Below, in pieces: positions 563 through 12,204 of a stretch of DNA of 14,404 bases (position 1 is the first letter of the stretch; the number at the start of each line of letters is the position of its first letter). A program made the translations under genes and the position numbers. The notes beneath the pieces are model-generated. The model did no database searches, was not told the DNA's origin, and saw only the letters and a list, made by a program, of their open reading frames with translations. Source of the DNA: Gemmatimonadota bacterium (GTDB lineage: Bacteria > Latescibacterota > UBA2968 > UBA8231); the NCBI GenBank assembly GCA_028875335.1, contig JAPPEF010000134.1, forward strand, positions 1 through 14,404. The letters are read 5' to 3'.

Positions 563-581
563 CGGCGGCCTGACGTGTATG

Positions 582-609
582 GACACTACCCGACCTAACG
601 GACAGTGTC
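582..609 (+). terminator. Stem-loop just after the ASPIC gene, possible terminator
   Basis: GACACT (582-587) pairs with AGTGTC (604-609). Inside a symmetric ac/ac internal loop, CCG (590-592) pairs with CGG (599-601), leaving a 6-nt loop. It lies 20 bp after the stop codon, where a terminator is expected. No T-run follows, so it may instead be a Rho-dependent or RNA-stabilising hairpin. Confidence 0.3.
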
Positions 610-1191
610 AGCCCCGGCATTGATCAGCAGATGGGGTTTTAGTCGTTATAGGGGGGATTATGGTGAAAATGCCAGTGTGACAGGGGTGTTCGAGTTATGA
701 GAAAGACGGTCCATTTGCATTAAAAAAACTAATAGATCTTTCTCTGATTATTCACAAATCAAGCGGGCTACGGATAGCTAACCCTCCTCGATTGAGCACG
801 TGGGTATAGATCATCGTCGTGCTGACATCTGGACATATTTTCGCTCACTCATTAAGTTAAGCATCTAGGGAAAATTTGTGACACGAGCCGAAACGCACAG
901 GTGCGTCTCTCAGGGATAGCCTCTTGAGACTGATGATGGCAGGCTGTGTCTACGTGGTTGCTGGTCCAACTGGATTCTGGTCGGGGTTCTTGATCTCCGA
1001 AATCATCGCAATCACCGCTCGATTGTCTTCAATCGGAAAGGAGGATTTGCTTATGGGCAAAATCATTTCGTTACTAGAGGCCTCCCTCCCTTACGGGCTC
1101 AGCCCGCTGAAGAGCTTGTGAGATCCAAGCGAAAAGGGAAGCTGTCAGTGCGATTACTTATGGCACAATATATACCTGTGGGAGAGCGATA
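610..1191. other. Intergenic stretch with no convincing gene
   Basis: No long open frame has coding character here. The stretch from about 715 to 770 is distinctly AT-rich (a run of seven A at 722-728), unlike the GC-rich genes on both sides. A TTG-started frame at 924-1121 shows no recognisable family. Only its last 22 codons have a good ribosome-binding site and are listed separately. The 3' end should hold the toxin-antitoxin promoter: TATATA at 1169-1174 is -10-like, but no good -35 lies at the right distance. Confidence 0.5.
1053..1121 (+). CDS. Possible 22-residue small ORF with a strong Shine-Dalgarno
   Basis: AAAGGAGG at 1037-1044 is close to an ideal Shine-Dalgarno, and an ATG follows 8 nt later at 1053. 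The frame encodes a 22-residue peptide starting MGKIISLLEASL and ends with TGA at 1119-1121. The N-terminal half could form a short amphipathic helix. The ORF ends 70 bp upstream of the antitoxin gene. No family is recognised. The ribosome-binding site is the only real support, and the start also lies inside a longer open frame without coding signs, so chance is quite possible. Confidence 0.2.
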   Translation: MGKIISLLEASLPYGLSPLKSL

Positions 1192-1422
1192 ATGCGCGAA
1201 TCGGATCTCTTCGCCCGTATCACAATTGATCCAAAACAATGTGGAGGACGTCCCTGCATCCGGGGAATGCGCATCCGCGTCAACGACGTACTCGAACTCC
1301 TCGCCGCTGGCGAGACGCCTGAGCAAATCCTAGCAGACTATTCCTATCTCCAGCCGGATGATATTGCCGCTAGTCTTCTGTACGCGGCGCATCAGCTTGA
1401 TCACCCCATTCTAGCCGCCTAG
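1192..1422 (+). CDS. DUF433 family antitoxin
   Basis: This 76-residue protein matches the DUF433 (VapB-like) family over nearly its whole length. It has RITIDPKQCGGRPCIRG, then MRIRVNDVLELLAAGETPEQ, then a helical segment with the ADYSYLQPDDI motif. DUF433 proteins carry a winged or helix-turn-helix fold and are thought to act as antitoxins that bind their partner and repress the promoter. The ATG at 1192 is preceded by GTGGGAGAG (1178-1186). The gene ends 16 bp before the DUF5615 gene, which is the standard pairing. Length is normal and nothing is truncated. Autoregulation is expected from the family, but no operator could be defined. Confidence 0.9.
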   Translation: MRESDLFARITIDPKQCGGRPCIRGMRIRVNDVLELLAAGETPEQILADYSYLQPDDIAASLLYAAHQLDHPILAA

Positions 1423-1438
1423 GATTGGGGGCGTCACA

Positions 1439-1828
1439 GTGGGCGATGAGTCGAATCGCGCCGAGACGCTCCAATTCTGGATCGACGCTCAACTGCCGCC
1501 CGCTCTGGCACAATGGCTACAGCGGGCACACGGCACCGAGGCGAGGCATGTCGAAGACCTTGGGCTCCACCGTGCGGAGGACACGAAGATCTTCACCGAG
1601 GCGCGAGCAACGGACCGCCCGATTGTAGTCGTTACAAAGGACGACGACTTCTCAAAGCTACTCGGCCAGCATGGGCCGCCACCGCAGGTCGTTTGGGTAC
1701 GGTGCGGCAATATAACGAACCGAGAACTCCATCGCATCATGATTGAGACTTGGGCGAACGCGGTCGCGCTACTCGCAGCGGGTGAAGCACTTGTCGAGAT
1801 CCGGCGACGCAGTGATGGGGCTAGCTAA
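1439..1828 (+). CDS. DUF5615 PIN-like toxin
   Basis: This 129-residue protein has the DUF5615 PIN-like layout. FWIDAQLPPALAQWL contains the first acidic residue (D16). It is followed by HVEDLGL (D40), ED at 47-48 and the strand IVVVTKDDDF (D68-D70), then VVWVRCGNITN. PIN-like folds use clustered acidic residues to hold Mg2+ for RNA cleavage, so a ribonuclease toxin is inferred and not shown. The start is GTG at 1439, with GGGGG (1427-1431) 7 nt upstream. No ATG lies before the catalytic FWID motif, so GTG is the only sensible start. It is co-transcribed with the DUF433 gene 16 bp upstream. All acidic motifs appear intact, so the pair may be functional. Confidence 0.87.
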   Translation: MGDESNRAETLQFWIDAQLPPALAQWLQRAHGTEARHVEDLGLHRAEDTKIFTEARATDRPIVVVTKDDDFSKLLGQHGPPPQVVWVRCGNITNRELHRIMIETWANAVALLAAGEALVEIRRRSDGAS

Positions 1829-1997
1829 CGAAGCGCTGTTGGAAGGTGGGCTCAGCCCTTTCGCGGACTTGGAGGTGCCTTTAGCGCACTTAAGCGACAA
1901 CGTAAAAGAGCCGTGCTACCCTGTCGAGGATTTTTCGTTGATGGAGGGCCCGCCCAATATCTCTACCGACCTACAATCCCAACGTCCCGCCGGGGTC

Positions 1998-4283
1998 TCA
2001 ATAGACGATCAACACCATTCGGTTGACGCTCTGGCTGTGGGCGTCGCTTTCCACTTTGAGCCGTAGAAAGTAGTGACCGGGCGGCACCAGATCGCCCGAT
2101 TGGTCTCGCCCGTCCCAGACCAGTTCCTGGGCGCCGGCCAGCGCTTGTCCCGAAATCTGGCGCACCCGGCGACCGGCTAGGTCGAAAAGCTCCAGTTTCA
2201 GCGGTCTGTGCTCCAGCACGTTGATCAGGTTCAGGCTGATAAAGAGGCGGTCACCTATGCCGTCGCCATTGGGTGTGAGCACTCTGGGGTACACGGAGAG
2301 ATGGGCGAAGAGGGCGCGGTCCAGGGGCAACTCGACGATATTGGTACTGCTTTCGACCTGTGGGTTGGCGTCACCCGGTTCGACCCGCTGGCGCACGTCC
2401 GGACCCAACTCGCTGTCTTCGAGAAAGAGGTCAAAACGCGTGGCCTGCAGGAAAGCGGCGGCCTCAAAGCGCATCTCCACCAGTTCGCCGCTCTGCACCC
2501 GGCGGGGGAACTGCAAACGGAAGCCGACGCTGTCCTCTCGCGCTTGGACCTCGATGGGCGCGCCATCGAGGCGGGTGTCGACAAAGCGCAGGGGCGTGGA
2601 GGCCTCTATGGCCAGCCGATCAAAGCCTGCGCGAGTAGCAGGGGCGCGCAGCCAGTAGGAAAAGGTCACCATGGTGCCCGGCTCGACTTGGAAGGGGTAG
2701 ACCTCGGCGCTGACGCGTTCGGCGATGGGATCGGCGAAGTCCAGGCTCACCCAGTCTAGGGAGGGCGCCCGCAGGGGGGAGTCGCTCACCAGACGCGCGT
2801 CGAGCTGGACGAAGCGCCTGAGCGAGGGCGAGAGGAAGGTCTGGCCGGAGGTCGCGTAGATATTGCTCCAGGGACTCCAGTCGCCGCCGGGCGTAGAGGT
2901 CGTATCGATGGGGCCGCGGAAAGAGGGAATGAGCTTGTCCCACCTCCTTGCGGTGACTTCTTTGAGATTCTTGTCGTAGTAGGTGAAATTCTGCTCCAGT
3001 TCGTTGCCCGAGCGGCTGCGCAGTTCGAGCCTGGTGCCGACGGGCACATCGGCGCCCCAGCGAAGGGCGTTGACATTCTTCCGGCCTCCGAGGTCGAGGA
3101 TGGGGGAGTGGAAGCGCACCTCGCGCGGAAAACCCTCGCTGAAGACCATGATCTCCGCAGTGTGGCCACTGGAGTAGCAATCGGGCGCGCTAGTGCCGGA
3201 TGCGGTGGTACAACTGGCGTCCCAAGTCTTGAAGAGGATGCGCAGGAAACGCGTGGGGATGGGGGCGAAGTGGTGCGCGACCATGCCCTGGCGCCGGGTG
3301 GCACGCGGCAGGACGCCGGAAAAGTGCTTGGTCCAGTGCAGTGAGCCGTCCGCGGCCAGCGAGCCGTCCGAGGTCATCATCTCGTGGAAGTTCATACTGA
3401 AATGCCGCCCGCGATCGATATGGCCGATGTGGTGCACCTGGTCGACCCAGTAGACGGCGCCCAGGTCCAGGATGATCCAGGCCCAGACATCGTTGGAGGC
3501 GCGCGGGACTCGGCCGCTGCGCCACCAGGTGTTGATCCGGCCGTCGATCAGCAGCAGGGCATTGGTCAGCGTCGCTTCGACGAAATCTGTGCCGCCGGTG
3601 CCGATGATGATCTCGACGGCTCCGCCCCGCTCGCGCAAGTCTGAGACCAGGTTGTCGCCCAGGGCTTCCACTTCGATTTCGACCAGCCGCGCCTCGGCCT
3701 CGGCCTTGAGCGCTTCGAGACGCACGAACTGGATCGGCGTCGGGGGTATGGCGGGAATGGCGAAGTCGACTCGGTGGGCGCTGTTTGCGCCGAAGCGCTC
3801 GGCGATGCGGTAGGTCAGGGTGCCGGGGACCGGGACATCGGCTACGTCGATGAACTGCTCCCCGGTGGACAGCAGCAGGTTGAAAATCTCAAAAGGGGGT
3901 GCAGCGTCGTCGAAGACCAGGGAGACACGGCTAGCCGGCACGCCGCGGCCCAGGTCCACCTCGACCCAGCCCGTCTTTTCGAGGTCGCCCGAGGCGGGCT
4001 GCCAGCCGGTCGCGGGGTCGCCGTCAAAGACTAGGGCTGCGGTGGCGCGGTTGGACCCGGCGTCGCGGAGGCCGCCGCCATGGTCTAGGGCATCGAGTGC
4101 GGCATTGATTTTTTTGCGAACTGCCAAAGGGCGGACGACCCCTTGGGGCGTCAGTTCGACGATCCCCAAGGGCAGGGTCCACTGGCGCCACTGGGCGGCG
4201 TTGTCAAAGCGCAATTCCTCGGCATTGAGCGGAGCAGCCGCAACGAGTGCCAACACGGCGCAGCGCAGATGTTTGGGTTTCAT
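1998..4283 (-). CDS. Secreted discoidin-like protein with FlgD/CHU_C-type C-terminal domain
   Basis: The 761-residue product starts at ATG 4283, with AAGGA 9 nt upstream. A TTG codon directly before it extends the open frame by one residue. A short signal peptide (LRCAVLALVAAAPLNAEE) marks export. Two F5/8-type-C (discoidin)-like sandwich regions follow at about 75-205 (ATAALVFDGDPATGW, VEVDLG) and 235-385 (LLIDGRINTWW, IILDLG). A spacer with SPWSNIY is next, then a block at about 523-640 (SYWLRAP, AGFDRLAI, VEPGDANP). The C-terminus is an Ig-like domain starting LTPNGDGIGD (670-679) and including FDLAGRRVR, WDGRDQSGDLVPPG. Discoidin domains usually bind carbohydrate or other surface ligands. 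The C-terminal domain resembles FlgD-Ig and gliding/T9SS-associated domains. The architecture matches the protein at 12258-14003. Exact ligand and anchoring are unknown. Confidence 0.85.
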   Translation of the reverse strand: MKPKHLRCAVLALVAAAPLNAEELRFDNAAQWRQWTLPLGIVELTPQGVVRPLAVRKKINAALDALDHGGGLRDAGSNRATAALVFDGDPATGWQPASGDLEKTGWVEVDLGRGVPASRVSLVFDDAAPPFEIFNLLLSTGEQFIDVADVPVPGTLTYRIAERFGANSAHRVDFAIPAIPPTPIQFVRLEALKAEAEARLVEIEVEALGDNLVSDLRERGGAVEIIIGTGGTDFVEATLTNALLLIDGRINTWWRSGRVPRASNDVWAWIILDLGAVYWVDQVHHIGHIDRGRHFSMNFHEMMTSDGSLAADGSLHWTKHFSGVLPRATRRQGMVAHHFAPIPTRFLRILFKTWDASCTTASGTSAPDCYSSGHTAEIMVFSEGFPREVRFHSPILDLGGRKNVNALRWGADVPVGTRLELRSRSGNELEQNFTYYDKNLKEVTARRWDKLIPSFRGPIDTTSTPGGDWSPWSNIYATSGQTFLSPSLRRFVQLDARLVSDSPLRAPSLDWVSLDFADPIAERVSAEVYPFQVEPGTMVTFSYWLRAPATRAGFDRLAIEASTPLRFVDTRLDGAPIEVQAREDSVGFRLQFPRRVQSGELVEMRFEAAAFLQATRFDLFLEDSELGPDVRQRVEPGDANPQVESSTNIVELPLDRALFAHLSVYPRVLTPNGDGIGDRLFISLNLINVLEHRPLKLELFDLAGRRVRQISGQALAGAQELVWDGRDQSGDLVPPGHYFLRLKVESDAHSQSVNRMVLIVY

Positions 4284-4373
4284 CAAGGCCGATCCTTTGC
4301 GTTGGGAGGCAATCCCAAGGAATAGACAGCTTGGTTTTCTAACCGCCTTGTCGAAACACCCTCTGTTGTCCGT

Positions 4374-4402
4374 ATTATACGCCCTCTGCGCTCGGGGGAC
4401 AA
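4374..4402 (-). promoter_or_regulatory. Sigma70-type promoter for the discoidin/FlgD-like gene
   Basis: Read on the minus strand, TTGTCC (4397-4402, -35) is separated by exactly 17 bp from a perfect TATAAT (4374-4379, -10). It lies about 90 bp upstream of the ATG at 4283, in the only non-coding gap before that gene. The -35 matches consensus at 4 of 6 positions. This suggests the gene is transcribed on its own rather than by read-through from the PhyH gene. Confidence 0.6.
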
Positions 4403-4485
4403 GCGCGCCTTCGCCTTATTCACTCATGCCGCCGTCCTATTGCTGACTTCCCATTCGCCCGCATCAACGACCGGCCGCCAAGAGT

Positions 4486-6123
4486 TCACAGTTTGCTCGA
4501 GGGCCATGCAAAAGGGCGCCGGCCGTCGTGCCCGTACGTGAAGAGCGCGGTCCGCCTCGGTGACTCAGCCTCCCAGCGGTACGCCCCGTGACAGACCGTC
4601 CCTCCCAAAAAGAAGAGAACAGACCCGCGACGCATTGGAATGTGGCGGATCGGCGCGCGCTCGTTGCAGGTCCGCACCGAATGCGGCAAGGGGTAGCACG
4701 ATTTGTGACTGCCCGGCACTACGACAAATCCGCCATCGTCGGGCCCGACGTCGTTGAGCTGCCAGGCGACGTTGATGCCCGACCTCGTGTGCACGCGCCC
4801 GTTTACTATCTCGTAGTGCTTGCCGATGCAGGTCGGGTTGGCGTTCCCCGAGTGCAGCATCTGCCCGCTCGAGCCTTTGACGTGGCACAGGGCCGTGTTC
4901 TGAGTTACCCTGTACCCTGGTCCAATCATCCAGTTCAAGCGCTGGATGACGGCCGGATGCGCCAGCATTTTGAGGAAAGGCGCATTGTGCGGTGCCGGTA
5001 GCTGAAACAAGTCCTTCAGGTCCGGCCGGCCCGTGCCCGAAATCGTCGGTGCCCCAGGGATGTCGGCAAGCGTCACGTCCCCGTCGAGCTTGTTGTCGCC
5101 TACGCCCCGGTACACTAGGCGGTCGAGGTTGGCGTCGATGCCCACCACGGCCGCATCGACCCAATCATCGTCCATGACGCCCTCGACCAACAGGAAGCCC
5201 TGAGTGTCAAACGCCCAGCGCTCGGCGTGATCATCTCGGCGTTCGGACTCGAGGGCAGAGGAGGCCCTCTGCGCCGCGTCGGCATCGTCGGCGGAGGTGA
5301 GCCAAGTGGTAGCGCCGTCCGATAGGAGCAGGCGACGCGAGTCGCCGCCCGCCAGCACGGTTTGCTCAGCCTCGCCCAGCCCTTCCGCCCATGCGGGCAG
5401 GGGCTGCTTGTCTTGCTGGTCAGGTGGCCCCTGTGGCCGAGCCGTGCGCGAGATGAAATTTACCACGAGTAGCTCGCCCCCATCACCCTGCGGGCAGACC
5501 CCGTGCAGCGTGCTAGCGGCGCACAGCAGCACGTCGCCCGCCGCCAGCGCCGGGCGCTCGGCGAAGCGACTGGAGGATGGAAGCGGTGGGTCAGGTAGCC
5601 CGCTCTTGTGCGAGGAGGGCACGACCACCAACGGGCACTTGCCTTCTGCCGAGTCCGTGAGGGCGATGGCCACCACCAGCCCCTGGCACTGCCGGATGCG
5701 GACTTCTTCCCAGGCACCGCCGGCCCGCGTAAGCTGAGTTCCGTCGGCGTTGCGGCCATTCCACCCCGCTAGGTTGATGTACGCCCGGTCCAGCGTGTGC
5801 GCCCCGCCTTCCAGTGGCAGCGAGGCTTCGTCGTACCCTCCTGCGGCGGCAGCAGGGACATGCCTCGCAGGGCCGTCTTGGCGAAAGCCATCGCCGCATA
5901 GCTCGCGCACGTAGCGTCCGACGGCACCGGCCTCGCTGCAGAGATCGCCCAGCCCATCGCCGCTGTCGCGGCACGCGGACAGCTCGGCTTGGCTGAGGAG
6001 TTGCGGCAGCACGACGAACCCGAGCGCGTCGAAGGTGAAGTTCTGCTCTATGGTAAGGATCGATGGCTCGTGTACGTGCGTCGCCTCGTTCCAGTGGTTC
6101 ACGGCGTAGGTGTCGATGCCCAT
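4486..6123 (-). CDS. Two-domain phytanoyl-CoA dioxygenase (PhyH)-like protein
   Basis: The 545-residue protein appears to be two PhyH-like cupins in tandem. The N-terminal half (about 25-230) opens with FDALGFVVLPQLLSQAEL and has PSSHKSG (169-175) and TLHGVCPQ (H207). The C-terminal half (about 300-540) has FDTQGFLLVEGVM, VAWQLNDVGPDDGGFVVVPGSHKS (split here as VAWQLNDV and VVVPGSHKS), VCHGAYRW (distal H512) and RRTALFTY (R524). PhyH enzymes are Fe(II)/2-oxoglutarate oxygenases that hydroxylate small molecules. The canonical HxD iron ligands are not evident: the C-terminal half has LHSGN (H424), as in a subgroup with LHGG, and the N-terminal half has only its distal His. ATG 6123 has GGAG 8 nt upstream. 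No signal peptide is seen, so it should be cytoplasmic. Substrate unknown. Confidence 0.8.
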   Translation of the reverse strand: MGIDTYAVNHWNEATHVHEPSILTIEQNFTFDALGFVVLPQLLSQAELSACRDSGDGLGDLCSEAGAVGRYVRELCGDGFRQDGPARHVPAAAAGGYDEASLPLEGGAHTLDRAYINLAGWNGRNADGTQLTRAGGAWEEVRIRQCQGLVVAIALTDSAEGKCPLVVVPSSHKSGLPDPPLPSSSRFAERPALAAGDVLLCAASTLHGVCPQGDGGELLVVNFISRTARPQGPPDQQDKQPLPAWAEGLGEAEQTVLAGGDSRRLLLSDGATTWLTSADDADAAQRASSALESERRDDHAERWAFDTQGFLLVEGVMDDDWVDAAVVGIDANLDRLVYRGVGDNKLDGDVTLADIPGAPTISGTGRPDLKDLFQLPAPHNAPFLKMLAHPAVIQRLNWMIGPGYRVTQNTALCHVKGSSGQMLHSGNANPTCIGKHYEIVNGRVHTRSGINVAWQLNDVGPDDGGFVVVPGSHKSCYPLPHSVRTCNERAPIRHIPMRRGSVLFFLGGTVCHGAYRWEAESPRRTALFTYGHDGRRPFAWPSSKL

Positions 6124-6186
6124 AAGAAAGTCTCCAGGGGACTGTCGCCTTTAGGCGACGGGGGAACGGAGACCGGCTTGAGCGAT

Positions 6187-6228
6187 GGGCGCGTAGCGCC
6201 CTGAGCTTGAGCCAATCTACGATAGATT
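6187..6228. repeat. Palindromes between the PhyH gene start and the mobile-element remnant
   Basis: Two perfect inverted repeats with 3-nt centres lie 60-105 bp upstream of the PhyH start codon. GGGCGC (6187-6192) pairs with GCGCCC (6196-6201) around GTA, and AATCTA (6214-6219) pairs with TAGATT (6223-6228) around CGA. An 8-bp direct repeat GCTTGAGC occurs at 6176-6183 and 6205-6212, bracketing the first palindrome. These could be operator sites for the PhyH promoter or subterminal structures of the IS200/IS605-like remnant. The sequence does not decide between the two. Confidence 0.4.
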
Positions 6229-6296
6229 TAGCCTATGAATCGACGCGGACTCATAGGAAAGATTGATTTTACGCGGTTTGGCATAATCGAGAGTCT

Positions 6297-6584
6297 TTCT
6301 CTTGTAGGATGCGCTCTTTGACAAGAGAATAGGTAGGAGGTTCCAGCACCGAACCGCGTGCTGGGTAAAACCTGTTGCGTGGTCAACCTTACAGGAGCGT
6401 TCGGCAAGGCTGAAAGTGCCGGCCGCGAAACCGCAAAGCGGCAAACGCTGGCGGTGGGTTGTCCTACTAAAGTCTCAACTCCGGTTGAGCATCCGGCCCG
6501 GTGCGGGCCTGCGGGGCGTAACGCAGAGGTAGTCAACTCATGCGTGCCCCGCGAAGCTGTCTGCTTTAGCTGACGGTAGTTCAC
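6297..6584 (+). ncRNA. Candidate TnpB-type guide (omega) RNA / highly structured RNA
   Basis: Successive perfect stems cover this stretch: 6297-6305/6321-6329 (9 bp); 6343-6349/6358-6364 (7 bp) inside 6338-6342/6369-6373; a three-way junction closed by AGCGTT (6396-6401)/AACGCT (6444-6449) that holds CGGCA/TGCCG (6402-6421) and GCCGC/GCGGC (6422-6442); CTCAAC/GTTGAG (6474-6489); GGCCC/GGGCC (6495-6509); GCGGGGC/GCCCCGC (6511-6517/6546-6552) stacked on ACGCA/TGCGT (6521-6525/6541-6545); and the terminal TTTA hairpin. In TnpB systems the omega RNA overlaps the end of tnpB and stops at the element's right end, with the guide read from flanking DNA. The layout here fits that: the scaffold ends at 6584 and the flank starts AGTTAGACCTCGATGG. 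The 5' end is uncertain. Confidence 0.5.
6337..6573 (+). pseudogene. tnpB C-terminal tail remnant
   Basis: An open frame runs from just after a TAG at 6334-6336 to the TGA at 6571-6573 inside the right-end hairpin, the usual place for a tnpB stop. It reads ...GRETAKRQTLAVGCPTKVSTP..., then PAGRNAEVVNS, and ends CVPREAVCFS. This resembles the low-conservation tail that follows the DRDxNAAxNI motif in IS1341-type TnpB proteins. The RuvC-like catalytic residues and the CxxC zinc finger that would precede it are absent, so nothing active can be made. A 148-codon frame on the opposite strand (6228-6674) is a mirror of this structured region and is not taken as a gene. Confidence 0.45.
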
Positions 6585-6615
6585 AGTTAGACCTCGATGG
6601 ATTCTGGAGGGTGGA

Positions 6616-6676
6616 CGGTGTTTTCTGGCATCTCTCCGTCCCACATCCACGGCGATGCTACCTACCGAAAACACCG
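6616..6676. repeat. 10-bp inverted repeat with an alternative pairing upstream of the GDPD gene
   Basis: CGGTGTTTTC (6616-6625) is perfectly complementary to GAAAACACCG (6667-6676) across a 41-nt spacer. A competing stem, GTGGACGG (6611-6618) with CCGTCCCAC (6636-6644, one bulge), shares bases 6616-6618, so the two cannot coexist. The structure ends 77 bp before the GDPD start codon. It could be a leader switch, a protein-binding site or another decayed insertion end. No ligand class is recognised. Confidence 0.35.
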
Positions 6677-6753
6677 CTACGGCGGCAAACTAAACAAAGT
6701 TCGCGTATCTTACAACTACGGCTCCTATTGAGCAAACTCGTAAGGAAAATGCA

Positions 6754-7674
6754 ATGAGAAATATACTCTTGGGACTCCTGTTTCTCTCTGTAGGATTCTA
6801 CAAATCGTATGGAGAAGCAGAGCAAAGTAATGACAAGATAGTAAAAGTATATCAGAATCCAGGAGCATACCCTCAAGCAGTACTGGTAGCAGCTCACAGA
6901 GGGAATTGGCGTAACGCTCCAGAGAATTCTCTGCTAGCAATGGATTTTTGCATCAAGTATGGTATAGACATTATGGAAACGGATCTTAAGATGACCAAAG
7001 ATGGAGTCCTAGTTCTGTTCCATGACTCTACTTTAGATCGGACAACGACAGGTTTTGGTAACGTCGCGGACTGGACATTGGATTCTCTGAAAACACTATA
7101 TCTGAAGAACGGTCTGGGGGTCCCCACATCGCAACGAATACCTACTTTTGAGGAAGGGTTGAGACATGCAAAAGACAGGATAATGTTGGATTTGGATAAG
7201 AGCTATCCGTACTTCAGAGAAGCGTACGATATGGTGAAACAAGAGGGCATGTTAGATCAGGTAATTTTTCGGATCAACGATTCCTATGAAGATTTCTCCA
7301 TGAAGTACGGTGAGCTCATAAAGGGCATAAACTACATGCCCTTACTTTGGTGGAATACAGAGGATCCTAAAGGATTTGTAGATAGCTATATACATGTTCC
7401 ATATCCTCCAAAAGTAATTGAAATCATCTTTGGAGAAGATCGTACTGACCTGTTAGATCAGGTGGATAGGATAAAATCCAAGGGGATAGGTATCATGATG
7501 AATCCTATCTATCCACACATTGCTGCTGGTCGTCTGGATGACCTAGCTCTGTCAAATCCAGATGATAACTGGGGCTGGGTCATAGAGAATGGGGCCACGG
7601 TGATTGGGACAGACCGGCCTGTACTCTTAATGGACTATCTTGAAGATACACACAAAAGGGGATTCAGAGACTGA
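6754..7674 (+). CDS. Secreted glycerophosphodiester phosphodiesterase family protein
   Basis: The 306-residue protein has the GDPD TIM-barrel signature: AAHRGNWRNAPENS (H48, R49, E57), METDLKMTKDGVLVLFHD (E75, D77, H90) and STLDRTTTG. Later barrel strands include IMLDLDK and the closing GATVIGTDRP. These residues form the metal site and the acid-base histidine pair that hydrolyse glycerophosphodiesters to glycerol-3-phosphate and an alcohol. An N-terminal hydrophobic stretch (ILLGLLFLSVGF) predicts export to the periplasm. ATG 6754 has AAGGA (6742-6746) 7 nt upstream. The gene is clearly AT-rich, with many ATA, AAA, GTA and TAT codons, unlike its GC-rich neighbours, and it sits next to a mobile-element remnant. 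This suggests horizontal acquisition, perhaps from a Bacteroidota-like donor. Confidence 0.9.
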   Translation: MRNILLGLLFLSVGFYKSYGEAEQSNDKIVKVYQNPGAYPQAVLVAAHRGNWRNAPENSLLAMDFCIKYGIDIMETDLKMTKDGVLVLFHDSTLDRTTTGFGNVADWTLDSLKTLYLKNGLGVPTSQRIPTFEEGLRHAKDRIMLDLDKSYPYFREAYDMVKQEGMLDQVIFRINDSYEDFSMKYGELIKGINYMPLLWWNTEDPKGFVDSYIHVPYPPKVIEIIFGEDRTDLLDQVDRIKSKGIGIMMNPIYPHIAAGRLDDLALSNPDDNWGWVIENGATVIGTDRPVLLMDYLEDTHKRGFRD

Positions 7675-7801
7675 CTATAAACAGCGTACTCATTGATCAA
7701 AGAACTATCAGAATCGGCTCTATTGAACAGCAAATTGAGGCTAGATCAGACATTGTCCAACAGGTCAAGTTTTGGCAAGTACACCTGACGACACAGGACC
7801 C

Positions 7802-9495: not shown

Positions 9496-12204
9496 CTAAT
9501 CTAGACCGGCGTACATCGTGGCAAAGGACACGCTGCCCGTCTCGGTCTCATCATCTATCGATCTTCTGGTCAATCTCATACCCATGTTCGTCAACAGCCG
9601 GTAACCCAGGTAATTGGTGACGTTCGAGAACTGCACCGCTCCGACGATCTCGGTGAAATCGTCGAGCAGTCCGTCCTTGACCGCGGTCTCCGATTGGCGT
9701 AGCTGGTTGAAGATCGTGTACTCCACACCGGCCTGCATGGTGGAAGAAGAGAACAGCGGCCATCGCGCCAGCAGGGAGAGTTGCAGCGTGTTTTCCCTGC
9801 GCTTGGGATCAGACTTGAGCGCCGGAGCCTCCAGCCTGAGCTCGTTCTTTATTCTCGGCACAAGATCGACATAGGCGACCTTGCGCTCGAGGTCCACCTT
9901 GTTGATGAGACCAAAGAAGGTGTAGTCCTCGCGCAGATCGGGCTGTCGTTCGTTCTGGTGCCAGCGATCGTATTTGAACTTACTCACGAAATTCACATCC
10001 TCGATCTTGGTGTACTTGAAGCTCATGAAGGTGGAGTTTATCCACGTGTCCTGAGCCGCTAGGGGATCGACGGTTGGAACGTTCCGCCGCTCGAACTCGT
10101 TCCACTGGCGAAGATCGTTCTCAATGTTGTCCTTGGCGATTCTGAAGTTCTCGTAGATCGTCAGCCTGCCAAGACCCGGATAGTCCCGTTCCAAGGTGAA
10201 GAGCACGTAGTTAGTCGTGTTCTCCCCGTCGCCTGCAATCAGTCTCTCATCCGTTCGTCCGACGGTCAGCCTGATGCCCGGAAGCAGGTCGCCGCCGCCG
10301 TAGATGTTGTATCCTGCGTGGTCCCTCGGGTAGGGAAAATCCGGCTCATCGTCGTTTTCGAACCGATCTACCCAGATGTTGTTGTTCATGTCTAATCCGA
10401 ACAAGTACTCCGGCCGGTCTGTTCCGTATCTCAAGAACGGCTCGTCGTAGTCCGGGACGAGATTGGGAAGGTCTTCGCTGTCGTTCTGGTTGAAATCGGA
10501 TATGAAGTCGAGGTTTTCGTCGTACCCGGGAAACACCTCGACGTCTATGTTTTGGAATATCCTCTGCCAGTCGGGGAATCTGTCCTGATCGTCGTTGTCG
10601 TCGACGAGCTCGTAGAAGAACCTCCCCTCGTCCGAGTAGTCTATGTTGGTCTCGCCTCTGGCCAGTATGGCGCTGGTGTTGTAGTCGTGGGCCATGCTGT
10701 AGGCTTCGCTAAAAAAGAAGAACGGATGGGCGACCTTCGACAGATTCAACATCCAGCCATCGCCTTGGTCAGAGGCCCCCAGGTGCTTGGTGTGGGCCCT
10801 GTTGGGGTACTTCCTGTAACTCACGCTGCGGTCCCATTCTCCGTATAAGTCGAATCCCCAGAGGCGGGTCGCCTCCAGCGTAAATCCGAATATCTCGGTG
10901 GCCGTCGGCAGACCATACGGGATCTTCAGGACGGTCAGGTTGGAGCCATCCTTGACGTTTTCATCAGCCCTGGCAGCCAGCAGGTAGACGTTGGCCAACT
11001 GCCTGTCGAACTGGCGGTCCGAGGTCATCTCGATTCTGTAGTCGTTGGCAACTGCCAACTCGAATGTCACCATTCTTATCTCTGATGGATCCGGGCCTGT
11101 GTACGTCGCCACCGAGAAGTCGTAGACCAGTTCGATCTGCTCGGAGCCGTTCGCCTCCCAGAACCCCAGCCTCTGAAAGCCGCCCTGGGGCGCGGGAATC
11201 AGCCCGACTTCGCTGGCCCGGACGGTCTCCCTTGCGAAACTCACATCCCCCGCTTCATCGATTGTTTCGACGTCGGCCTCTATGATCATGTCCCACGCAA
11301 ACAGCGTGGCACCGCCTTCGTTGTCCTCTGGCGAGTCGTCCGAGAGTCGCACGAAGACTTGGGTGACGTTCTCCGCGTTCTGACTGGAGGTGATCGAACC
11401 GCTTCGCGGGCTGCCCTCGAAGGCGTCGAGGAGCTGAGAGGAGTTGTGGGCGCTCACGTGGTTGGCACCGAGTTTGAGATAATCTCCAATCTGGGTCGTC
11501 GCACGTCGGCCGGTCAGGGTCGTCGAGCTCGTCTGCTGGTTATTAGGGCTTCGCGAGCCAGCGGCACCCGGCGAGCTGATCCGCGAGAGGAGCGCCGTCA
11601 CTTCGTACTTGTCGGACTGATAGTCGATCTGAATGCCGTCGAACGCCGGCTTGGAGAAGGTCATCGGGGTCAGGGTCGACCGGATCTCGTCGCCTATAGT
11701 GATGGCCAGATTGTGCTGTCCCTTCTGATCGGAGGCTATGACCAGATTGCTGAAGAAACTCTGGAACCGTCCGGTCTTGAACAGATTGCTTCCCCCCTGC
11801 TGGGGCTGGGTCTGGCTCCAGTCGTAGATCAGCCATCCTCTGGTGATGTACGAACCGTAGATGTCGTAGAAGTAGTCCCCCTCGAGATTGGTCGATACAT
11901 AGCGCTGGTAGTGATCTCTCGCGTAGTTGCTGTACTCCCACTGCTTCCACTGATATTCGCGAAACAGCTCCTGTGGGACGTACCACTTCTTGACTGCGGG
12001 GTCTAGAGCGCCGAACAGGACGCCGGGGCCCGTCGGTTCGAACGTGAGTTCGCCGCCGCGGCGAAACCCCTTTATCCGATCTCGCTCGGAACCCTGGGCT
12101 TCCGAGCGAGTACTGTGCAGCAGAATTGCCGAGACGATGGTACACCATATGGCCAGCGTACCGACTAGACGCATCGTTCCTTTGACTGTACGACCTGTCA
12201 CCAT
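9496..12204 (-). CDS. Large predicted outer-membrane beta-barrel protein
   Basis: This 902-residue protein has a signal peptide (MRLVGTLAIWCTIVSAILLH, ending near AQG at 38). ATG 12204 has AGGAG about 6 nt upstream. Met11 is an alternative start, with AAGGA close by. The N-terminal part (about 50-135) is rich in Trp and Tyr. From about 430 onward, alternating hydrophobic/polar strands with aromatic girdles suggest a barrel. Residues about 533-625 are highly acidic (DDNDDQDRFPDW, PDYDEPF, ENDDEPDFPY) and include GLDMNNNIWVDRF, which looks like a calcium-type loop region. The segment HAGYNIYGGGDLLPG then leads back into strands. It lies between a discoidin/FlgD-type gene and a parvulin, suggesting a surface or secretion role. 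No named family is recognised. It could be a porin-like, adhesin-anchoring or secretion-channel protein. Confidence 0.7.
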   Translation of the reverse strand: MVTGRTVKGTMRLVGTLAIWCTIVSAILLHSTRSEAQGSERDRIKGFRRGGELTFEPTGPGVLFGALDPAVKKWYVPQELFREYQWKQWEYSNYARDHYQRYVSTNLEGDYFYDIYGSYITRGWLIYDWSQTQPQQGGSNLFKTGRFQSFFSNLVIASDQKGQHNLAITIGDEIRSTLTPMTFSKPAFDGIQIDYQSDKYEVTALLSRISSPGAAGSRSPNNQQTSSTTLTGRRATTQIGDYLKLGANHVSAHNSSQLLDAFEGSPRSGSITSSQNAENVTQVFVRLSDDSPEDNEGGATLFAWDMIIEADVETIDEAGDVSFARETVRASEVGLIPAPQGGFQRLGFWEANGSEQIELVYDFSVATYTGPDPSEIRMVTFELAVANDYRIEMTSDRQFDRQLANVYLLAARADENVKDGSNLTVLKIPYGLPTATEIFGFTLEATRLWGFDLYGEWDRSVSYRKYPNRAHTKHLGASDQGDGWMLNLSKVAHPFFFFSEAYSMAHDYNTSAILARGETNIDYSDEGRFFYELVDDNDDQDRFPDWQRIFQNIDVEVFPGYDENLDFISDFNQNDSEDLPNLVPDYDEPFLRYGTDRPEYLFGLDMNNNIWVDRFENDDEPDFPYPRDHAGYNIYGGGDLLPGIRLTVGRTDERLIAGDGENTTNYVLFTLERDYPGLGRLTIYENFRIAKDNIENDLRQWNEFERRNVPTVDPLAAQDTWINSTFMSFKYTKIEDVNFVSKFKYDRWHQNERQPDLREDYTFFGLINKVDLERKVAYVDLVPRIKNELRLEAPALKSDPKRRENTLQLSLLARWPLFSSSTMQAGVEYTIFNQLRQSETAVKDGLLDDFTEIVGAVQFSNVTNYLGYRLLTNMGMRLTRRSIDDETETGSVSFATMYAGLD

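Follow-up and report, generated by a model that had tools for sequence, protein, structure and literature searches.

The question raised by this locus is whether a compact and strongly structured RNA belongs to a TnpB system although no nuclease gene accompanies it, and how it might persist in that state. The DNA analyzed here (the window) comprises 14,404 nucleotides, and an earlier note, made from the sequence alone, had proposed a stand-alone omega RNA with a chromosomal guide at 6297–6600. The host is a Latescibacterota-like genome, as a 902-aa protein encoded at 9496–12204 on the minus strand is, in the best segment, 95, 93, and 90% identical to its counterparts in the metagenome-assembled relatives p16x43bins.30 (locus L032 of genome G001), IRC4_bin_45 (L043 of G003), and PNGco_C_bin1 (L033 of G002), respectively, with G001 being the closest genome to the window. 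All genome searches covered up to 64 genomes of one phylum, complemented by viral, phage, and plasmid collections.

Two of these relatives, L032 and L033, carry the corresponding site without an insertion. Their sequence runs from ...GATGCCCAT directly into AGTTAGACCTCAATGG, and the window holds 461 bp in between, so that the insertion can be assigned to positions 6124–6584 (plus strand) and described as a non-autonomous IS200/IS605-type element without tnpA or tnpB. The left end that had been placed at 6297 therefore moves to 6124, while the proposal that scaffold and element share their right end was confirmed at 6584, as both relatives resume at 6585. One base of play exists at this boundary because A6124 and A6585 are identical, and it is settled by the related copy L128, which reads CCAT followed by AAGAAA. 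According to the empty sites, the window element and L128 were both inserted without target duplication 3′ of a short target motif (TAM), which for the window is GCCCAT (6118–6123, plus strand), located left of the element and containing on the minus strand the ATG of a PhyH-domain gene. The empty site of L128, GTCCAT-CAGAACC, was read in G001, G005, and G007. CCAT was found at six of the seven left junctions read (window, L122, L123, L124, L125, and L128) and CAAT at that of L121, with the junctions of L121 to L125 placed by eye and without an empty site. Before the right junction of a further copy, L127, G003, G006, and G007 read CCCAT, and G002, G004, G005, and G009 read CCTAT; compared with these seven genomes, L127 apparently no longer has its left end or its native left flank. 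The third relative, L043, lacks the whole stretch 565–7785, which is a variable region: L033 lacks approximately 565–4481, and in L032 a different sequence replaces the GDPD-domain gene at 6754–7674. A type II hammerhead ribozyme, the only Rfam match of the window at the gathering score, was found at 886–948 (plus strand, 42.9 bits at a gathering score of 37), in a stretch that L033 and L043 lack in their orthologous regions.

The putative guide is the chromosomal flank at 6585–6600 (plus strand), and it matches the empty sites of L032 and L033 in 15 of 16 positions, where it directly follows CCAT. The empty alleles thus restore the target motif together with the guide, which bears out the suggestion that the 3′ flank serves as guide. 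The excerpts of PMC8612924 describe for ISDra2 a donor joint composed of target motif and guide, and the layout in the window equals this arrangement. A scan of the window for a second copy of the 16-nt flank gave two matches in all compared to 0.12 expected, with nothing below three mismatches and one match with three mismatches at 2542–2557.

Both ends of the element carry palindromes that are related to the ends of full-length elements. On the left, the sequence reads GTCGCC-TTTA-GGCGAC (6144–6159), and similar palindromes occur in L121, L122, L125, and L128; the left end of L114/L125 is 76% identical to that of the window over 58 nt. On the right, sequence and predicted fold indicate a hairpin at 6557–6584 (plus strand) with a UUUA loop at −20 to −17 (6565–6568; −1 is position 6584) and the terminus GGTAGTTCAC. 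Similar ends flank the tnpA-tnpB elements L121 and L122 in G001 and the tnpB element L125 in G003, and also L123 and L124 in G003, but with an enlarged right-end loop. L121 codes for both an IS200-type transposase (PF01797, NF033573) and a guided TnpB (PF07282, PF01385, NF040570). Inspected by eye, six kin TnpBs show the expected D, E, and D residues. Among five genomes searched for the Y1 transposase, G001 gave two matches, G006 one, and G002 two partial matches within larger frames, with no match in G003 or G050; candidate TnpAs are present in G001 and G006. The window element itself, at 461 bp, is too short to hold a tnpB, and the only listed frame of at least 80 aa that lies largely within it (6228–6674, minus strand) runs opposite to the tnpB homology. 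An element without protein genes may depend on enzymes from related elements. A further palindrome, CCTATGA...TCATAGG, is located at 6232–6257, and L128 has CCTATA...TATAGG at this place, which is a compensatory change.

The right part of the element (6469–6584, plus strand) can be delimited as a 116-nt omega RNA scaffold by analogy to ISDra2, with homology to tnpB 3′ ends established for 6495–6584. The stretch 6290–6600 reached a minimum free energy of −134.2 (z −3.72), and none of 100 dinucleotide shuffles was as good, in favor of the folding proposed earlier; for 6470–6584 the z value was −3.93, with 0 of 200 shuffles as good. The proposed 7+5-bp stacked stem at approximately 6511–6552 was recovered in both the minimum-energy and the consensus fold. 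Comparison of 6495–6584 with five tnpB loci at their 3′ ends yielded z values of 18.2, 11.4, 13.6, 9.4, and 6.6 (0 of 100 shuffles each), whereas two tnpA controls gave −0.6 and −0.3. In an alignment of six sequences, three without and three with tnpB, 11 of 30 pairs were changed on both sides and 95.6% of the cells were paired (0 of 500 shuffles), further pair types were matched by 6 of 500 shuffles, and slid controls were only 31 to 42% paired; these figures are flattered because the tested structure was drawn from the same alignment. The covariation of stems that had been named as a check was hence found, and together with the homology it indicates that the structured RNA is a stand-alone omega RNA of the TnpB type, as the earlier note had supposed. 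A model of this RNA (R1) gave 12 matches in 7 of 64 genomes, five of which had served to build it. Seven of the nine strong matches lie with tnpB (L121 to L125, L145, and L146, the last with a frame interrupted by a stop) and two without (L127 and L128). The three weak ones are in G004, G017, and G030, that of G004 being a decayed tnpB.

The characteristic motifs support this assignment in their spacing, with GAA at −32 to −30, UUUA at −20 to −17, and GUUCA at −6 to −2. The excerpts of PMC10097598 place GAA, UUUA, and G-U-C-A (−6, −5, −3, −2) of the ISDra2 omega RNA at the same distances and describe a 116-nt scaffold, with the part from −231 to −117 being dispensable. For GAA at −105 to −103, the pseudoknot partner of the 3′ end in ISDra2, no counterpart was seen by eye in the window. 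A simple scan of 6100–6760 for sigma-70-like promoters gave no hit. By analogy, the RNA of the window would bind TnpB and guide its cleavage.

Upstream of the scaffold lies a second folded RNA, which the earlier note had missed as a separate unit and which we call domain A (6303–6468, plus strand). Positioned after the left end and before the omega RNA, it ends at −117 and is closed by GUAGGA/UCCUAC. Its core (6313–6398, plus strand) consists of GCUCUUUGACA, a long hairpin with a UAAAAC internal loop, and GAGC. The domain folds with a z value of −3.49 (1 of 200 shuffles as good), and in the comparative fold CGCTC (6312–6316) pairs with GAGCG (6395–6399), with a compensatory change in L128. The three-way junction formerly read at 6396–6449 is absent from the minimum-energy folds of both 6290–6600 and 6303–6468. 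Across four copies without tnpB, 12 of 47 pairs were changed on both sides (0 of 500 shuffles), and in the closing helix all cells were paired with two double-sided changes, although the structure was tested on the alignment it came from and four sequences are few. No Rfam family was matched by domain A at the gathering score; below threshold, the DUF2693 RNA appeared over 6313–6467 (E 5.6) and RAGATH-13 on part of the copy in G050 (E 2.8), and elsewhere over 6100–6800 all matches were sub-threshold as well.

A model built from the window, L127 of G001, and L128 of G006 (R2) matched 3 of 64 genomes, two of which contributed its own building sequences; the one new copy is located in G050 (L143, E 1.3e−9). 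After rebuilding with this copy (R3), a chance-level match in G045 (E 0.76) was added and not counted. R3 found nothing in the eight loci with tnpB or its remains (L121 to L125 and L145 to L147), and no genome among up to 64 held two copies of domain A. By eye, the copy in G050 differs at both ends, its right end (GGGAGTCGTCAC) being of a different kind, and in G043 the two flanks of this copy lie 82 bp apart instead of 561. Judged from the sequences, domain A hence recurs across two types of IS605-like ends. A divergent copy in G042 retains GCTCTTTG.CA, the UAAAAC internal loop, and the stems; it is recognized by motif and fold and escapes R3. The motif pattern occurred in 8 of the 64 genomes, with two hits in a backward control. 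Domain A copies were accepted in four of them (G001, G006, G050, and G042), and the matches in G019, G027, G046, and G048 were rejected, as no IS end was seen. In G050, loops at a tnpB end (L143, 690–805, plus strand) and in the element without tnpB (L143, 1435–1500, minus strand) may pair with the right end; by eye, GGCUAC/GUAGUC and GGCGA/UCGUC form a possible pseudoknot with compensatory change. The left end of the G050 element (L143, 1880–1917, minus strand) gave a COG2908 RNA match of 21.3 bits (cut-off 58.7, E 0.0042).

With regards to the origin of domain A, its 5′ half showed no similarity to tnpA or tnpB, and its 3′ half may contain bits of tnpB, judging from comparisons in which, at best, 3 of 100 shuffles reached the score of the window and 1 of 100 that of L127, with L128 and G050 unremarkable. 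A 17-nt stretch within 6405–6422 corresponds to tnpB codons for KAESAG, and a similar match exists with local tnpB genes. The 17-mer of the window, AAGGCTGAAAGTGCCGG, matched 26 viral stretches, most of which encode the TnpB motif KAESAG by eye.

Searches beyond the close genomes were carried out by blastn with 6240–6620 (E up to 1). No match was obtained among phages, and the plasmids gave one 45-base match in Jiella (E 0.03), which was taken as chance; it lies in a stretch without annotated features, and no IS end was seen. Further viral scans returned 0, 3, 1, 0, 0, 0, and 4 stretches, the last four being free of domain A. By eye, an apparent tnpB fragment is fused to the same right end in L028 and L029. 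With the G050 copy as query, neither plasmids nor phages gave a match. A literature survey of titles and abstract beginnings, which covered few subscription papers, returned nothing on domain A or on TnpB guide RNAs without tnpB.

One rival explanation is a dying relic, in which a deletion derivative keeps the omega RNA only through its overlap with the right end needed for transposition, and the RNA itself is inert. Such derivatives are common according to the excerpts of PMC3119063 and PMC7290912, G004 contains a degraded tnpB whose right end is of the same type, and the possible tnpB bits in the 3′ half of domain A would fit. However, the omega RNA and domain A are kept paired by double-sided changes among copies without tnpB, and L127 keeps domain A, omega RNA, and guide despite the apparent loss of its left end together with the native flank on that side; both observations weaken this explanation. 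As decay would also leave unexplained why domain A occurs with two types of ends, we consider an inert relic unlikely. Far less probable is a HEARO/IscB omega RNA or an intron-bearing IStron, which would have in its favor a resemblance of the hairpin near 6402–6421 to HEARO. No such model was among the Rfam matches up to E 10 over 6100–6800, tnpB genes share homology with the 3′ end, and the empty sites put the guide on the 3′ side, so that we regard this possibility as almost negligible.

The surroundings of the element suggest another alternative, namely a regulatory RNA co-opted between two divergent genes and acting, for instance, on the PhyH-domain gene or, via a nuclease-dead TnpB, on the empty alleles. 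The element directly abuts the ATG of this gene (4486–6123, minus strand; PF05721, E 3.5e−18), the left end provides GGAG eight nucleotides before it (6132–6135, minus strand), read from the sequence as a possible ribosome-binding site, and in the empty alleles the guide spans the stretch immediately before the start codon. On the other side, the D, E, and D residues are, by eye, preserved in kin TnpBs, and nothing favors retention at this site, as copies are found at unrelated sites and the site is empty in L032 and L033. What speaks for co-option is position, and we therefore judge it highly improbable. Four insertions (window, L128, L124, and L125) each lie directly before an opposite-strand ATG, which belongs to the PhyH-domain gene, a 635-codon frame, a DUF2231-like frame, and a ureF-like frame, respectively (all names except PhyH assigned by visual reading). 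For the window and L124, GGAG in the left end is at ribosome-binding distance, as if replacing the Shine-Dalgarno site of the gene.

We return to a guide-only element that is moved by TnpA and whose transcript is loaded into TnpB, both supplied by related full-length elements, and consider this the probable explanation. The sequences show the ends, the insertion site, the empty alleles, the homology and covariation of the omega RNA, and the conservation of domain A, and we infer transcription, TnpB loading, cutting, and mobilization in trans. TnpA of the related elements would recognize the two palindromic ends and move the window element, and a transcript of approximately 6303–6600 would be loaded into their TnpB. 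This nuclease may then cut the empty site that excision leaves behind, or the empty allele of another cell, whereby the element would be retained. According to the excerpts of PMC8612924, elements of this kind are mobilized by TnpA in single-stranded form, and cleavage of the donor joint by TnpB and its omega RNA promotes restoration of the element. A trans action of the window omega RNA is plausible. As a guess, domain A would most likely serve as a folded 5′ cap or handle substituting for the absent tnpB message. With both TnpA and TnpB coming from related elements, the window element would be a guide-only transposon. More tentatively, and with doubt prevailing, it may represent a class of guide-only IS200/IS605 transposons without tnpB, in which domain A, as a dedicated RNA, replaces tnpB before the omega RNA and turns the latter into a trans-acting guide for TnpB of other elements. 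Counting against the guide-only explanation are the lack of a promoter hit in the simple scan, the lack of Y1 transposase matches in G003 and G050, the pseudoknot partner without a counterpart by eye, and the fact that no genome among up to 64 had two copies of domain A; in addition, the matches of R1, R2, and R3 are mostly sequences used to build the models, and the tested structures were drawn from the alignments themselves, which comprise six and four sequences. If this holds, a guide RNA of TnpB type would be a selfish unit in its own right, exploiting both the transposase and the nuclease of related elements. Domain A, as a concrete RNA, could be added or removed to test its role in guide supply, and the empty alleles with target motif and guide allow a direct test of the retention model.

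In comparison with known systems, Altae-Tran and colleagues reportedly found in 2021 standalone IscB omega RNAs in Ktedonobacter, which have no adjacent nuclease gene and may act in trans. The window RNA likewise lacks an adjacent nuclease gene, but it belongs to the TnpB type and has a 3′ guide. With the reRNA of ISDra2, as described in the excerpts of PMC8612924 and PMC10097598, it shares the right-end location within an element of the IS200/IS605 type, UUUA and GAA at the distances given above, and the guide in the 3′ flank. It differs from the ISDra2 described there in that no tnpB is present in cis, domain A and not tnpB coding sequence lies upstream of −116, the target motif ends in CCAT instead of TTGAT, and the pseudoknot partner was not found by eye. 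The PATEs (palindrome-associated transposable elements) of Haloquadratum and Halanaerobium are, like the window element, transposase-free IS605 derivatives with near-terminal palindromes, and a PATE-like sequence of Halanaerobium also retains a tnpB end and the right end (excerpts of PMC3119063 and PMC7290912). Neither a guide nor a conserved RNA is mentioned there for the PATEs; the window element carries an omega RNA and a further RNA domain, both conserved with covariation. Judged by its sequence, it is a PATE-like non-autonomous IS200/IS605-type element; transposase-free elements of this kind are already known, and what is new is the evidence for conserved RNA structure together with domain A.
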